Origin: Thermaerobacter marianensis DSM 12885
GTDB lineage: Bacteria; Bacillota; Sulfobacillia; Thermaerobacterales; Thermaerobacteraceae
Length of the DNA: 64,000 nt
Reading direction: 5' to 3'
Assembly: GCF_000184705.1 (NCBI RefSeq)
Contig: NC_014831.1
Coordinates: 1,364,001 to 1,428,000, forward strand
Both the position numbers and the translations under genes were made by a program. Below, one piece after another: positions 41,048 to 46,621 of the stretch. Positions within the stretch are counted from its first letter, which is position 1; each line of letters opens with the position of its first letter. The notes under the pieces are model-generated. The model searched no databases and was not told the origin of the DNA. It saw only the letters and a program-made list of their open reading frames with translations.

Positions 41048-41953
41048 CTAGCGCACCAGCGCGCCGATGCACCGGCGGCGGGCGTCACCGTCCAGGGCCG
41101 GGCGGTCCTGCAGGGCCGCCACCAGGGGCTGGCCCCCCTCGCCGCGCCCGCCCGCGGCCCCCTCGCCCTCCCGCTGGCCGTCTCCGCCACCGCCCGGGCC
41201 GGCCCTGCCCGGCGCCCGCCAAAGGGCCAGGAACTCGCGGTTGCCGTCCGCGCCGCGGATGGGCGAGGCCGTCAGACCCAGCAGCGTGAGGCCGAGCTGG
41301 TCGGCTGCCGCCGTCACGTCCTCCAGCACGCGCCGGTGGACGGCCGGGTCGCGGACCACCCCGCCCTTGCCCACGTCGGCCGGGCCCGCCTCGAACTGGG
41401 GCTTGACCAGGGCCACCACGCCGCCGCCCGGCGCCAGGACGCCCAGGGCCGCGGGCAGGATGAGGCGCAGCGAGATGAAGGAGACGTCGACCGTCACCAG
41501 GTGGACGGGCTCGGCCAGATCCGACGGCGCCAGGTACCGGGCGTTGACCCGCTCCATCACCACGACCCGCGGGTCCTGGCGCAGCCGCCAGGCCAGCTGG
41601 CCGTAGCCCACGTCGATGGCGTAGACCTTGCGGGCCCCGTGCTGCAGCAGGCAGTCGGTGAAGCCGCCGGTGGAGGCCCCGATGTCGGCGCAGACGGCCC
41701 CCTGCACGGCCCCGGTCAGGTTGAAGGTTCGCAGGGCGTGCTCCAGCTTGAGGCCACCGCGGCTGACGTAGGGGATGGGGTCGCCGGCCACCTCGATCTG
41801 GGCGCCGGGATCCACCGTGGCCCCCGCCTTGTCGACCACCCGGCCGTCCACCCGCACCCGCCCGGCCAGGATGGCCGCCCGAGCCCGGCTCCGGCTGTCG
41901 AACCACCCGCGTTCTACCAGCAGGACGTCCAGGCGCGTTCCCTTCCGGCTCAC
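41048..41953 (-). CDS. tlyA: TlyA family rRNA (2'-O)-methyltransferase/hemolysin-like protein
   Basis: A 301-residue TlyA protein (YqxC of Bacillus). The N-terminal S4 RNA-binding domain (residues ~5-65) has LDVLLVERGWFDSRSRARAA. The FtsJ-type methyltransferase domain has the SAM motif DIGASTGGFTDCLL and YAIDVGYGQLAW, then VTVDVSFISLR. It is related to 2'-O-ribose methylation of rRNA in mycobacteria; the exact site here is unknown. The C-terminal ~40 residues are Gly/Ala-rich. GTG at 41953 lies 28 bp after dxs. Confidence 0.93.
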   Translation of the reverse strand: MSRKGTRLDVLLVERGWFDSRSRARAAILAGRVRVDGRVVDKAGATVDPGAQIEVAGDPIPYVSRGGLKLEHALRTFNLTGAVQGAVCADIGASTGGFTDCLLQHGARKVYAIDVGYGQLAWRLRQDPRVVVMERVNARYLAPSDLAEPVHLVTVDVSFISLRLILPAALGVLAPGGGVVALVKPQFEAGPADVGKGGVVRDPAVHRRVLEDVTAAADQLGLTLLGLTASPIRGADGNREFLALWRAPGRAGPGGGGDGQREGEGAAGGRGEGGQPLVAALQDRPALDGDARRRCIGALVR

Positions 41954-41981: not shown

Positions 41982-43898
41982 TCATCCGCCCGCCCGCCGC
42001 CGGACCGGGGCGGCAGCGTCCAGGACCTCCCGCGCCGCCTGGGCGATCCCTTCGGGGGTGAGGCCGAAGAGGGCCCGGAAGTGGGCGGGGTCGCCGTGTT
42101 CCACCACCCGGTCCGGCACCCCCAGGCAGCGGATGCGGGCCTTGAGGCCCCGGCGCGCGGCCATCTCCAGCACCGCGCTGCCGAAGCCCCCGGCCAGCAT
42201 GTGTTCCTCCACGGTGACGGCGTGGCCGGTGGTCGCCAGCAGGTCGGCCAGCAGCTCCTCGTCCAGGGGCTTGGCGAACCGGGCGTTGACCACGGCGGCG
42301 TCGATGCCTTCCCGGGCCAGGAGGCTGGCGGCCGCCAGGGCGGCGTAGGCCAGGGGCCCGTAGGCGATGAGGGCCACGTCGCGGCCCGCGCGCAGGAGCT
42401 CGGCCCGCCCGACGGGAAGAACCCGCGGCTCCTCCAGGGGCACGCCGATGCCGGTGCCCCGCGGCCAGCGGATGGCCACCGGTCCCTGTTCGTAGGCCAC
42501 GGCGGTCTTCAGCATGTGGCGCAGCTCGTTTTCGTCCTTCGGCGCCATGAGGACGTACCCCGGCAGGGGGCGCAGGTAGGCGATGTCATAGAGCCCCTGG
42601 TGGGTCTCGCCGTCGGCGCCGACGATGCCCGCCCGGTCGATGGCGAAGATGACGGGCAGCCGCTGCAGCCCCACGTCGTGGACCGCCTGGTCGAAGGCCC
42701 GCTGAAGGAAGGTGGAGTAGATGGCCACCACGGGCCGGAAGCCGCCCAGAGCGAGCCCGGCGGCGAAGGTGACGGCGTGCTGCTCGGCGATGCCCACGTC
42801 GAAGGACCGCTCGGGGAAGGTCCGGGCGAAGGTGGCCACGCCGGTGCCGTCGGGCATGGCCGCGGTGATCGCCACCAGGCGGGGGTCCTCCCGCGCCAGC
42901 TCGACCAGGGTGCGGGCGAACACGGCGGTATAGGCCGGCGGCTCGCCGGGCCGGCGGGGCTCCATCTTGCCCGTCGCCGGGTTGAAGGGCTTGGGGCCGT
43001 GCCAGGTCCAGGGATCGCCCTCGGCCGGCGCATAGCCCTTGCCCTTCTGGGTGATGACGTGGATCAGCACCGGCCCGCGCATCGCCTTGGCGCTCTCCAG
43101 GACCCGGATCAGGTCGCGCAGGCGGTAGCCGTCCACCGGCCCGAGGTAGCGGAGGCCCAGGGCCTCGAACAGCATGCCCGGGACCACCAGGTACTTGAGA
43201 CTGTCCTTGAAGCGCTGGACCCAGCGCAAGGCCTGAGGCCCGACCCGCGGGAGCTGCTCCAGCATCCGCTCCAGCTCCGCGCGCATCCGGGTATAGGCCG
43301 GATCGGTGCGGATCTGGGTGAGGTAGCGGGAGAGGCCGCCCACGTTGGGGGCGATGGACATGGAGTTGTCGTTGAGGACGACGATCAGGTCCGTGCCCAG
43401 GTGGCCTGCGTGATTCATCGCCTCGAAGGCCATGCCCGCCGTCAGGGCACCGTCGCCGATGACGGCCACCACGTGGTGCTTCTCGCCGCGCAGGTCGCGG
43501 GCGCGGGCCAGGCCGACGGCGTGGGAGATGGAGGTGCCGGCGTGGCCCGCCTCCACCACGTCGTGGGGGCTCTCCTCCCGTTTCAGAAAGCCGCTGATGC
43601 CGCCGGTCTGGCGCAAGGTGTGGAACCGGTGGAACCGGCCGGTGACCAGCTTGTGGGGGTAGGCCTGGTGGCCGGTATCCCAGACGATCTTGTCGCGGGG
43701 GCTGTCGAAGACCTTGTGCAGGGCCAGGGTGAGCTCCACCACGCCCAGGCTGGCCCCCAGGTGGCCGCCCTGGCGGGCCACCGTATCGATGATGACCCGC
43801 CGGATCTCTGCCGCCAGTTGGACCAGCTGGCCCTCGTCCATCCCCTTCAAGTCTTGCGGTCTCTGGAGCCGCGGCAGGATCTCGGCCAGCGTCCTCAC
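41982..43898 (-). CDS. dxs: 1-deoxy-D-xylulose-5-phosphate synthase
   Basis: DXS, the thiamine-diphosphate enzyme that starts the non-mevalonate isoprenoid pathway from pyruvate and glyceraldehyde 3-phosphate. At 638 residues it is normal length. Motifs: [18 protein letters not shown], the thiamine-binding [17 protein letters not shown], the transketolase pyrimidine part with [15 protein letters not shown] and [15 protein letters not shown]. The GTG start overlaps the stop of the OapA-like gene (GTGA). It belongs downstream of the OLE RNA locus, as in other OLE-bearing Firmicutes. Confidence 0.98.
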
Positions 43899-44653
43899 CC
43901 CTTGGGCACGGTGCGCGCGGGCACGCTGCGGCTGGGGGCGGCGGGCCGGGACGCGTCCCGGGCGGGTTGGGTCGCACCCCCGGCCGCGGAGGGGGCCGCA
44001 CCCCCGGCGGCGGGCTGGGCGACGGCGCGGGTCGAACGGCGGCCGGCGGGCACCCGGGCCCGGCGCCGGCTCCGGCGCGGTGCCGGATAGAGGCGCAGCC
44101 GGGTCCAGCGTTCGATGGCCTCCAGCAGGCGCCCCAGGGCCAGGAGCACGCGCCGGTGCTCGCGCAAGGCGAAACCCTTGCCGGCGGCCTTGGCCCCGAC
44201 CATCAGCCCCGCCACCAGGGCCAGCACCACCGGCGCCACCACCAGATGGGTGCCCCGGCCGTCCAGCCACTGCCCGAGGCGCAGGGCCACCGCCGCCCCC
44301 GCTGCGCCGGACAGGGTTCCGGCCACGTCGCCGACCACGTCGTTGGCGAAGGCGGCGACCCGGTCGGCGTTGCGGACCAGCCCCAGGGCCGCGCGGGCCC
44401 CGGCCTTGCGTTTGGCCGCCATGGCGTGGAAGGGCGCCTCGTCGGCCGCCGCGGCGGCCACGCCGATGATGTCGAAGACCACGCCTAGCGCAATGATGGC
44501 CGCCACGATGAGAACGGCCAGCGGCAGGTTGAGCGCCCGTACGGCGGATTCCGACAGGGGAGACGTGAACAGCGCCACCGCGAAGGTCAAGAAGCCCAGC
44601 CCCACGCCCCGCTTCCACCCCGGGGTGTACCGTGAGGCCTGACCGCGCGCCAA
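43895..44653 (-). CDS. oapA: OapA-like OLE-associated membrane protein
   Basis: A 252-residue membrane protein with four hydrophobic segments (about residues 17-36, 43-66, 106-128 and 137-158). Position, encoded directly between the OLE-like noncoding RNA and dxs, and sequence pattern fit OapA, the protein that binds OLE RNA and anchors it at the membrane. A DxxxD motif, reported as important in OapA, is seen as DVVGD at residues 105-109. Around it are the conserved-looking [14 protein letters not shown] and [15 protein letters not shown] segments. The last ~60 residues are an Arg/Ala/Pro-rich basic tail. TTG at 44653 has GGAGGG 7 bases upstream; longer frames run into the RNA and are rejected. 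Confidence 0.85.
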
Positions 44654-44737
44654 TCCGATCCCTCCAGCGAACCCAGGATTCGGGGGACAAAGGGCGGCCG
44701 AAAGCTCGCGAAAGCTCACGCTGACATGTTCAAGCAT

Positions 44738-44760
44738 AAAAGGGCTGCGGGTGGCAGCCC
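44738..44760 (-). terminator. Terminator hairpin at the 3' end of the OLE-like RNA
   Basis: Minus strand GGGCTGC, a 5-base loop, GCAGCCC, then TTTTAT. It ends 85 bases before the oapA-like start, so it would define the RNA 3' end, with downstream genes expressed by read-through. Confidence 0.75.
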
Positions 44761-45364
44761 GCTGAGTAAACGTTGCGGCTTGAGGTCTAGCAGGATTTCC
44801 CGCTGGCCGACCGGGCCGTCGCCGGCCCGGCGGTTTCCCTTTGCGCAGCCAGCCTGCCGCGTCGCCGCCGGCAGGGCTAGATTGCCACTTAGCGCGCACT
44901 GTAATCCCCAGCGGGCCTTCCCCAACGGGAAACAGCCTAGGGGTTTTCCCCGGCGGCGCCCCGTGCTTCCTAGCCCGTTTAGCAGGCAGGGTTTCAGGGC
45001 AAGCCGCCCGGCCGGGGGCCCGCCGGCGCGGACGGCCGTCTCGCCACCTCCACCCTGCCCACGCAGGGCAGGCTACGCTGCACACGGTCATCCCGCATGC
45101 AGGTTCATACCCCATGCCGTAGCCATCCCGGTTCCGGTCCTGCCACGGCCATGGGCCTCCGCGGGGTCAGGGTCAACGCCTGCATGCCGTTGCAGATCGC
45201 CCCGGCCCCTTAACTCCCAGCAGCGACCCCCGACTGGGCGTCGGCAGCCGCCACCAGGAACTTCATCGATGTGCCCATACGGCGGATTTTTAGGCCCGCC
45301 TTCAGAAGCACGGGTGCCGACTAGGATACTGCGCCACCCGCAGTCAAAACTTGAACCTTTCAAG
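44738..45364 (-). ncRNA. OLE RNA (ornate, large, extremophilic RNA), predicted
   Basis: About 630 nt of structured, noncoding, less GC-rich sequence between ispA and an oapA-like gene followed by dxs, the known location of OLE RNA in extremophilic Firmicutes. Size and gene context match the family. Stems seen on the RNA strand include CTTGAA/TTCAAG (45350-45364), ACTGCG/CGCAGT (45328-45344), CCGAC/GTCGG (45230-45244), CCTGCCC/GGGCAGG (45054-45072), CCTGCC/GGCAGG (44853-44875), CCGGGCC/GGCCCGG (44811-44830) and the 3' terminator hairpin. All reading frames are broken. The 5' end is uncertain and could reach 45615. OLE RNA forms a membrane ribonucleoprotein with OapA linked to stress and magnesium tolerance. 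The identification rests on context and architecture; a covariance search was not possible. Confidence 0.78.
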
Positions 45365-45694
45365 GATCGTCCGGCCCGTCGCGGCCCGCGCCGACGGGCC
45401 GGCACCGCGGCGGTATCAAGGCCGGCCCATCCAAAGGTCAGCCAAGATCAATCTTACCGTGGCACCCCGCCCCGGTCGAACCCCGTGGCCGGCTCCCGCG
45501 CCGGATCCGGCGGCGATCCGGCGCCCTCCCGGGCGGTGGACCCGGCAAAAAGGCGCCCGCCGGCCTCCGCCCGCCTTCGTCGCCCCCATCTCGCCGCCGC
45601 CGTCACGGCAACCGGCGGTCTAGCATAGCAGCGCGGTGCGGCCCTCGCAAGGTACTTCGCGCCCACGGGATACAGATCCTGCCATCGCCGAGCT
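45365..45694. other. Leader region between ispA and the OLE-like RNA
   Basis: 330 bp without a gene. It contains the sigma-A-type promoter at 45622-45650 and AT-richer patches such as AAGATTGATCTT (a perfect palindrome, near 45440-45451), and may include the 5' part or precursor of the RNA. Confidence 0.55.
45622..45650 (-). promoter_or_regulatory. Sigma-A-type promoter upstream of the OLE-like RNA
   Basis: Minus strand TTGCGA, 17-bp spacer, TATGCT, with TG one base before the -10 (TGCTATGCT, extended -10). Transcription would start near 45615, giving the RNA, oapA, dxs and tlyA their own start independent of ispA. Confidence 0.7.
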
Positions 45695-46621
45695 TCAACG
45701 CCGCCGCTCCAGCAGGCTCCGCGCCAGCCACGCCAGCAAGGCGGCCCGGTCGCCCAGGGGGTCCAGGCTGGCCACGGCGCGCTCCGTCGCCTCGGCGGCC
45801 AGCCGGCGCGCCCGCTCCAGGCCTACCAGGCCCGGTACCGTCACCTTGCCCCGACGCGCGTCGCTGCCCACCGGCTTGCCCAGTTCGGCCTCGTCGCCCG
45901 TCACGTCCAGGATGTCGTCCACGATCTGGAACGCCTCGCCAAAGGCGGTGGCGTAGGCGGTCAGCGCCTCCAGCTCCCCCTCCCCGGCGCCCGCCAGCCG
46001 CGCGCCCATGCGTACGCAGGCACGGAAGAGCGCGCCCGTCTTGCGCCGGTGGATGGACTGCAGCCGCGCCAGGTCCAGGGGCGCGCCCTGGACGGCATCC
46101 AGGTCGTCCACCTGCCCGCCGATGAGCCCCGCCGTGCCGGCGGCGCGGGCCAGTTCTTCCGCCACGGCCAGGGCGACGGCGGGATCGGCTCCCCAGCGCG
46201 GCAGGCCCGCCAGGACCTCGAAGGCAAGGGTCAACAGGGCGTCCCCGGCCAGGATCGCCATGGCTTCCCCGAACACCACGTGGTTGGCCGGCTGGCCGCG
46301 GCGCATGGCGTCATCGTCCATGGCCGGCAGGTCGTCGTGGATCAGGGAGTAGGTGTGGACCAGTTCCACCGCCGCTGCGGCGCGCCGGACGGCCGGCGTC
46401 ACCGCCTCCGGGCCCCCGACGCACCGGGCCGCGGCCATCACCAGCACCGGGCGCAACAGCTTCCCGCCGGCCAGTGCGCTGTAGCGCATGGCTTCGTGGA
46501 TGCGGGCGGGCGGGACGTCCGGGCCCGGCAGCACCTCTTCCAGGGCCCGGCGCGCGCCCGCGGCCAGGGCCTCGAACTCCGCCCGCCAATCGCCCGCCGC
46601 CCCGCGGCCGTCGGCCGTCAC
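45695..46621 (-). CDS. ispA: Polyprenyl (farnesyl) diphosphate synthase
   Basis: A 308-residue short-chain trans-prenyl diphosphate synthase. The first Asp-rich motif is HDDLPAMDDD (residues ~95-104), the second QIVDDILDVTGD; GGKLLRPVLV binds the diphosphate. The residues before the first motif (LVHTYSLIHDD) fit farnesyl/geranyl synthases as in Bacillus IspA (YqiD). GTG at 46621 overlaps the xseB stop (GTGA). It ends the nusB-folD-xseAB-ispA run; the OLE-like RNA follows. Confidence 0.95.
   Translation of the reverse strand: MTADGRGAAGDWRAEFEALAAGARRALEEVLPGPDVPPARIHEAMRYSALAGGKLLRPVLVMAAARCVGGPEAVTPAVRRAAAAVELVHTYSLIHDDLPAMDDDAMRRGQPANHVVFGEAMAILAGDALLTLAFEVLAGLPRWGADPAVALAVAEELARAAGTAGLIGGQVDDLDAVQGAPLDLARLQSIHRRKTGALFRACVRMGARLAGAGEGELEALTAYATAFGEAFQIVDDILDVTGDEAELGKPVGSDARRGKVTVPGLVGLERARRLAAEATERAVASLDPLGDRAALLAWLARSLLERRR

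Follow-up and report, generated by a model that had tools for sequence, protein, structure and literature searches.

OLE RNA is a large structured RNA of many spore-forming bacteria and is part of a membrane-bound stress complex (PMC9723947, PMC11332333, PMC12265935). In Halalkalibacterium halodurans, the protein partners of the RNA and the membrane localization of the complex are known, and cells that lose the complex become sensitive to cold, alcohols, and Mg2+ (PMC9723947, PMC11332333, PMC12265935). Features of the family include an abundant RNA of about 600 nt at the membrane and an oapA gene that usually lies next to it. About 25% of OLE RNA positions are over 97% conserved (PMC12265935), and an OLE RNA homodimer from Clostridium acetobutylicum has been described by cryo-EM (PMC12286853). 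The partner OapA has a weak relation to the CNNM domain of Mg2+ transporters and to the CNNM/DUF21 domain of MpfA (PMC11332333). A 2024 survey of GTDB R08-RS214 gave 2,822 Bacillota OLE hits, obtained with the same kind of search as that used here (PMC11332333).

We analyzed a 64,000-nt stretch of the Thermaerobacter marianensis genome (the window; positions 1364001 to 1428000 of its one contig, which is 2,844,696 bp long). Strain 7p75a of this species has a 2,844,696-bp chromosome of 72.5% GC, grows at 50 to 80°C, is strictly aerobic, and forms rare terminal spores (PMC3035304). A first-pass annotation of the window had predicted an OLE RNA at 44738 to 45615 and had proposed a covariance-model search. 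When the window was scanned with all Rfam families, OLE (RF01071) was the sole match, on the minus strand at 45353 to 44735 (model positions 1 to 616 of 616, 444.7 bits, E = 2.7e-127), almost 400 bits above the gathering score of 50 for this family. The genome contains one copy, and OLE was also detected in all three sampled Thermaerobacter relatives (424 to 448 bits). The 619-nt block at 44735 to 45353 is thereby confirmed as a complete copy of OLE RNA. The span originally proposed fits the predicted primary transcript but overstates the conserved RNA, which covers just 0.62 kb and is preceded by approximately 260 nt of unconserved sequence. We treat the presence of OLE in T. marianensis as a confirmation and not a discovery, real but expected, because the GTDB-wide survey, which searched in a comparable way, is expected to cover this species and very probably already counted this copy (PMC11332333). 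No paper naming Thermaerobacter and OLE RNA together was found in the searchable literature.

The T. marianensis OLE resembles that of H. halodurans in its full-length fold, conserved single-stranded blocks, kink-turn strands, adjoining oapA gene, and the presence of OapA, OapB, and OapC. It differs in its host, which is GC-rich, thermophilic, and aerobic, and in having a predicted nonconserved leader of approximately 260 nt and a T-tailed hairpin that overlaps the closing stem. With the variant 1 and variant 2 OLEs of the TANB77 and RF39 clades (PMC11332333) it has a conserved core in common; however, these variants shorten or lack P7 to P9 and mostly occur without OapB and OapC, whereas the T. 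marianensis RNA is full length and both genes are present. OLEs from other genera of its class exhibit the same fold and gene order. In most of these, unlike in Thermaerobacter, an extended −10 element precedes the RNA by a median of 34 nt, and the closing stem is not overlapped by a T-tailed hairpin.

To examine the fold, we aligned 77 OLE sequences from the class with MAFFT and projected the Rfam structure onto the alignment through the T. marianensis row. Standard pairs accounted for 85.8% of cells, compared to 40 to 46% when the partners were slid by 1 to 3 bases. Of 157 pairs, 127 showed compensatory changes, as did 1753 cells; in shuffles, the means were 97 pairs and 678 cells and the maxima 104 and 751. 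These shuffles overstate significance because the 77 sequences are related to one another; the slid-partner control is free of this kinship fault. The fold is therefore conserved across the class. Pairing was weakest in two helices, at 46% of cells for 45038-45023/45015-45001 and 59% for 45047-45043/45000-44997; these are the places of greatest variation among the relatives. At the level of whole stems, P12.2/P13, the OapB-binding region, pairs well in the alignment. Both strands of the OapC kink turn, a site defined previously (PMC9723947), were identified, intact in sequence, on the minus strand: the 5′ strand AUC-GAU-GAAG at 45261 to 45270 and the 3′ strand GUUAAGG at 45208 to 45214. The C-G pair of the C helix beside the bulge is kept in 68 of the 77 sequences. 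Across the class set, conservation reaches at least 97% at 143 of 619 positions, of which 98 are unpaired; the T. marianensis RNA deviates from the 90% consensus just once, at 44981.

The RNA of T. marianensis is 68.0% GC. In 300-nt windows, GC content is 65 to 71% over the RNA versus 70 to 80% in the surrounding genes, so the block does have the lower GC content noted in the first-pass annotation, by a real but modest margin. The same annotation had expected a GC-rich representative to be of special help in comparative work. This holds only in part: OLEs of 54 to 74% GC are common in the class, and at 85 of 101 genomes, the class is in itself a good covariation set.

The neighboring genes, identified by family matches, place the RNA in the expected slot between ispA and an OapA-like gene followed by dxs and tlyA. 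All are on the minus strand: ispA, encoding farnesyl diphosphate synthase (45695 to 46621; NF045485, 327.7 bits); oapA, encoding a 252-residue membrane protein (43895 to 44653; TTG start preceded by GGAGGG); dxs (41982 to 43898; GTG start; TIGR00204, 851 bits); and tlyA (41048 to 41953; TIGR00478, 248.6 bits). The GTG start of dxs overlaps the TGA stop of oapA at 43895 to 43898, an arrangement that suggests possible translational coupling of the two genes. The order ispA-OLE-oapA-dxs is common across the class, being complete in 19 of 36 flanked loci within the sequence examined. At four of the 36 (L004, L009, L016, and L021), OLE has ispA and dxs on either side, with oapA located at a separate place in the genome. 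The RNA-OapA pair survives such separation: among genomes of the same families, for example, G046 has OLE at C1:428729 and oapA at C1:65836.

The sequence matches indicate that T. marianensis encodes all three established OLE partners. OapA shares 37% identity with its Halalkalibacter wakoensis counterpart (BLASTP, E = 3e-43). PF01595 (CNNM/DUF21) was weakly detected in 24 of 33 OapA sequences of the class (best E = 2.9e-6), and the T. marianensis protein alone scored below the cutoff (E = 0.014). A profile built from the 33 class members gave no meaningful hit in the PDB; the single T. marianensis sequence matched 7m1t, a CBS-domain “hemolysin” chain, weakly (E = 0.057). Because a KOW (PF00467) search for OapB returned just L24 and NusG, OapB was then located by its position between map and infA. 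This 105-residue protein, encoded on the minus strand (G000:C1, 2737998 to 2738315), matches PDB entry 7k9b, “OLE-associated protein B” (E = 8e-15). OapC is the YbxF homolog (L032, 1498 to 1752) and matches the YbxF structures 3v7e and 4lck (E = 4e-16). For structural studies, this OLE copy may yield a particle of greater stability, its host growing at 50 to 80°C and encoding the three partners in a single small genome. A published melting point of 65°C belongs to GOLLD and ROOL and was not applied to the OLE dimer.

Across the class, OLE and OapA are tightly linked. The OapA profile detected the protein in 84 of 101 genomes, all of them OLE positive; OapA is thus present in 84 of 85 OLE-positive and 0 of 16 OLE-negative genomes (Fisher’s P = 1e-17). 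In the single exception, G096, the OLE is partial and is separated from the end of its contig by no more than about 50 bases, and the missing oapA may therefore reflect an assembly gap. In G083, which belongs to the same family as T. marianensis, neither OLE nor OapA was detected; this assembly consists of 580 contigs and is 91% complete, and the absence is either a loss or a gap. Of the 16 OLE-negative genomes, 10 contained the MpfA-type domain CorC_HlyC, compared with 21 of the 85 OLE-positive genomes (Fisher’s P = 0.006). These counts agree with the published anticorrelation with OLE but are not independent evidence, since 7 of the 10 OLE-negative carriers come from one family. All seven sampled genomes of family f8 (G006, G032, G049, G062, G071, G087, and G094) lack OLE and OapA and carry an MpfA-type CorC_HlyC, a clean clade-wide replacement pattern. 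The CorC_HlyC match is absent from T. marianensis and present in its three sampled congeners.

The first-pass annotation had also assigned the RNA its own extended −10 promoter. A default consensus scan of the block found no promoter because the −35/−10 pair matches the consensus at 8 of 12 positions and the threshold was 9. With a model trained on related ole promoters, however, a predicted sigma-A promoter at 45622 to 45650 on the minus strand (TTGCGA at 45650 to 45645, a 17-nt spacer, and the extended −10 element TGCTATGCT at 45630 to 45622) scored 15.7, a value reached by 0 of 300 shuffles. Transcription from this site is predicted to start near 45615, the outer coordinate given in the first-pass annotation. 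In most relatives, an extended −10 element, TGNTATAAT, is located close before OLE, with scores at or above the 2% shuffle level in 48 of 76 sequences. Among non-Thermaerobacter loci with long flanks, 27 of 30 have the promoter within 100 nt of OLE, the median distance being 34 nt, whereas the highest-scoring site in each of the four Thermaerobacter genomes lies 163 to 268 nt upstream (268 nt in T. marianensis). The predicted 5′ leader of about 260 nt (45354 to 45615, minus strand) is not conserved within the genus: its identity to the congeners is 48 to 50%, versus 93 to 94% for the OLE core.

At the other end of the RNA, the 3′ domain is closed by a long-range stem in which 44917-44907 pairs with 44766-44756. 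This 11-bp stem is paired in 95% of cells of the 77 sequences, has compensatory changes in 10 pairs, and has a calculated energy of −21.1 kcal/mol as a duplex. The T-tailed hairpin noted in the first-pass annotation is present here: a terminator-like hairpin, GGGCTGC-CACCC-GCAGCCC (44760 to 44742, −13.0 kcal/mol), is followed by TTTT, the whole element occupying 44738 to 44760 on the minus strand. Because the hairpin and the closing stem share 44760 to 44756, both cannot form completely. All four Thermaerobacter genomes retain the hairpin, with a single mismatch, a few wobble pairs, and one pair changed from U-A to C-G; four sequences are too few for proof of conservation. We rejected such a hairpin as a general OLE feature: any T-tailed hairpin occurred in 12 of 77 sequences (2.7 expected from shuffles), and one at the closing stem was restricted to Thermaerobacter and a few others.

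We found no published description of either genus-specific feature, the distant promoter or the T-tailed hairpin over the closing stem, and the transcript ends in Thermaerobacter are the only place where this locus might add, in a small way, to what is known. One conceivable but improbable interpretation is that Thermaerobacter has rebuilt the ends of the OLE transcript, with a distant promoter, a leader of approximately 150 to 260 nt, and a terminator hairpin incompatible with the outer part of the closing stem, such that OLE folding would select between termination and read-through into oapA-dxs. If so, this would constitute an attenuator-like link between the RNA and the gene for its partner OapA, perhaps involving the bound proteins.

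The prediction of an OLE RNA is upheld by the full-length RF01071 match, the covariation, the adjoining oapA, the cooccurrence of OLE with OapA, and the OapB and OapC genes. We consider it almost certain that the block is an ole gene. By analogy with H. halodurans, ole would have its own sigma-A promoter within the ispA-oapA-dxs cluster and be transcribed from it on the minus strand. Its product would fold into the large OLE structure and bind OapA (encoded by the gene that follows), OapB, which is of KOW type, and OapC/YbxF, which binds kink turns. The ribonucleoprotein so formed would assemble at the cell membrane and help against stresses such as cold, alcohols, and high Mg2+. It is from H. 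halodurans that the assignment of transcript start and end, membrane assembly, and stress role in T. marianensis is carried over, and the phenotypes may not transfer, since T. marianensis is strictly aerobic and grows at 50 to 80°C. There is no evidence against the OLE identity of the block; a departure from most relatives is the predicted promoter 268 nt from the conserved RNA.

That departure could mean that the gene is no longer expressed or functional in T. marianensis, given that the close promoter of most relatives is missing. However, the strongly conserved positions are retained with a single exception, every partner gene is intact, and further upstream there is a good promoter-like site, which makes a silent gene very unlikely. 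Slightly less probable still is a protein-coding origin of the sequence. The block had been described as free of open frames, which is incorrect as stated: a 300-residue frame on the plus strand (44726 to 45628) spans it, and the OapA frame on the minus strand stays open up to 45115, so that either an antisense protein or a long N-terminal extension of OapA could be envisaged. Neither frame shows any sign of coding. Long open frames are usual by chance at approximately 70% GC. The sequence is instead held by RNA pairing, and the compensatory changes at most of its pairs make coding very unlikely. In addition, the longest antisense runs of T. marianensis (206, 112, and 76 residues) match those of its three Thermaerobacter relatives (79/191/118, 79/191/118, and 128/123/116 residues; frames not aligned base by base) in neither frame nor length, and similarity among the OapA homologs of relatives begins only at about the TTG start used. 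A long noncoding stretch within a dense gene cluster might also be a degraded insertion element or an intergenic remnant with chance stems. The full-length Rfam match, the single genome copy, the 93 to 94% identity within the genus compared with about 49% for the DNA just upstream, and the conserved position in the class refute this explanation, to which we assign a negligible likelihood.

At 20 of 20 loci of OapA relatives from other Bacillota records, including Halobacillus, Moorella, Halalkalibacter, and Paenibacillus, OLE was located just upstream. No viral OLE was detected; a conserved OLE 16-mer occurred in seven IMG/VR contigs, with no Rfam OLE match in the stretches examined. A contig filed under an Acetobacteraceae metagenome-assembled genome (L133, 1 to 467) carries an OLE that is truncated where the contig ends and is followed by OapA; it is probably a misbinned Bacillota contig.
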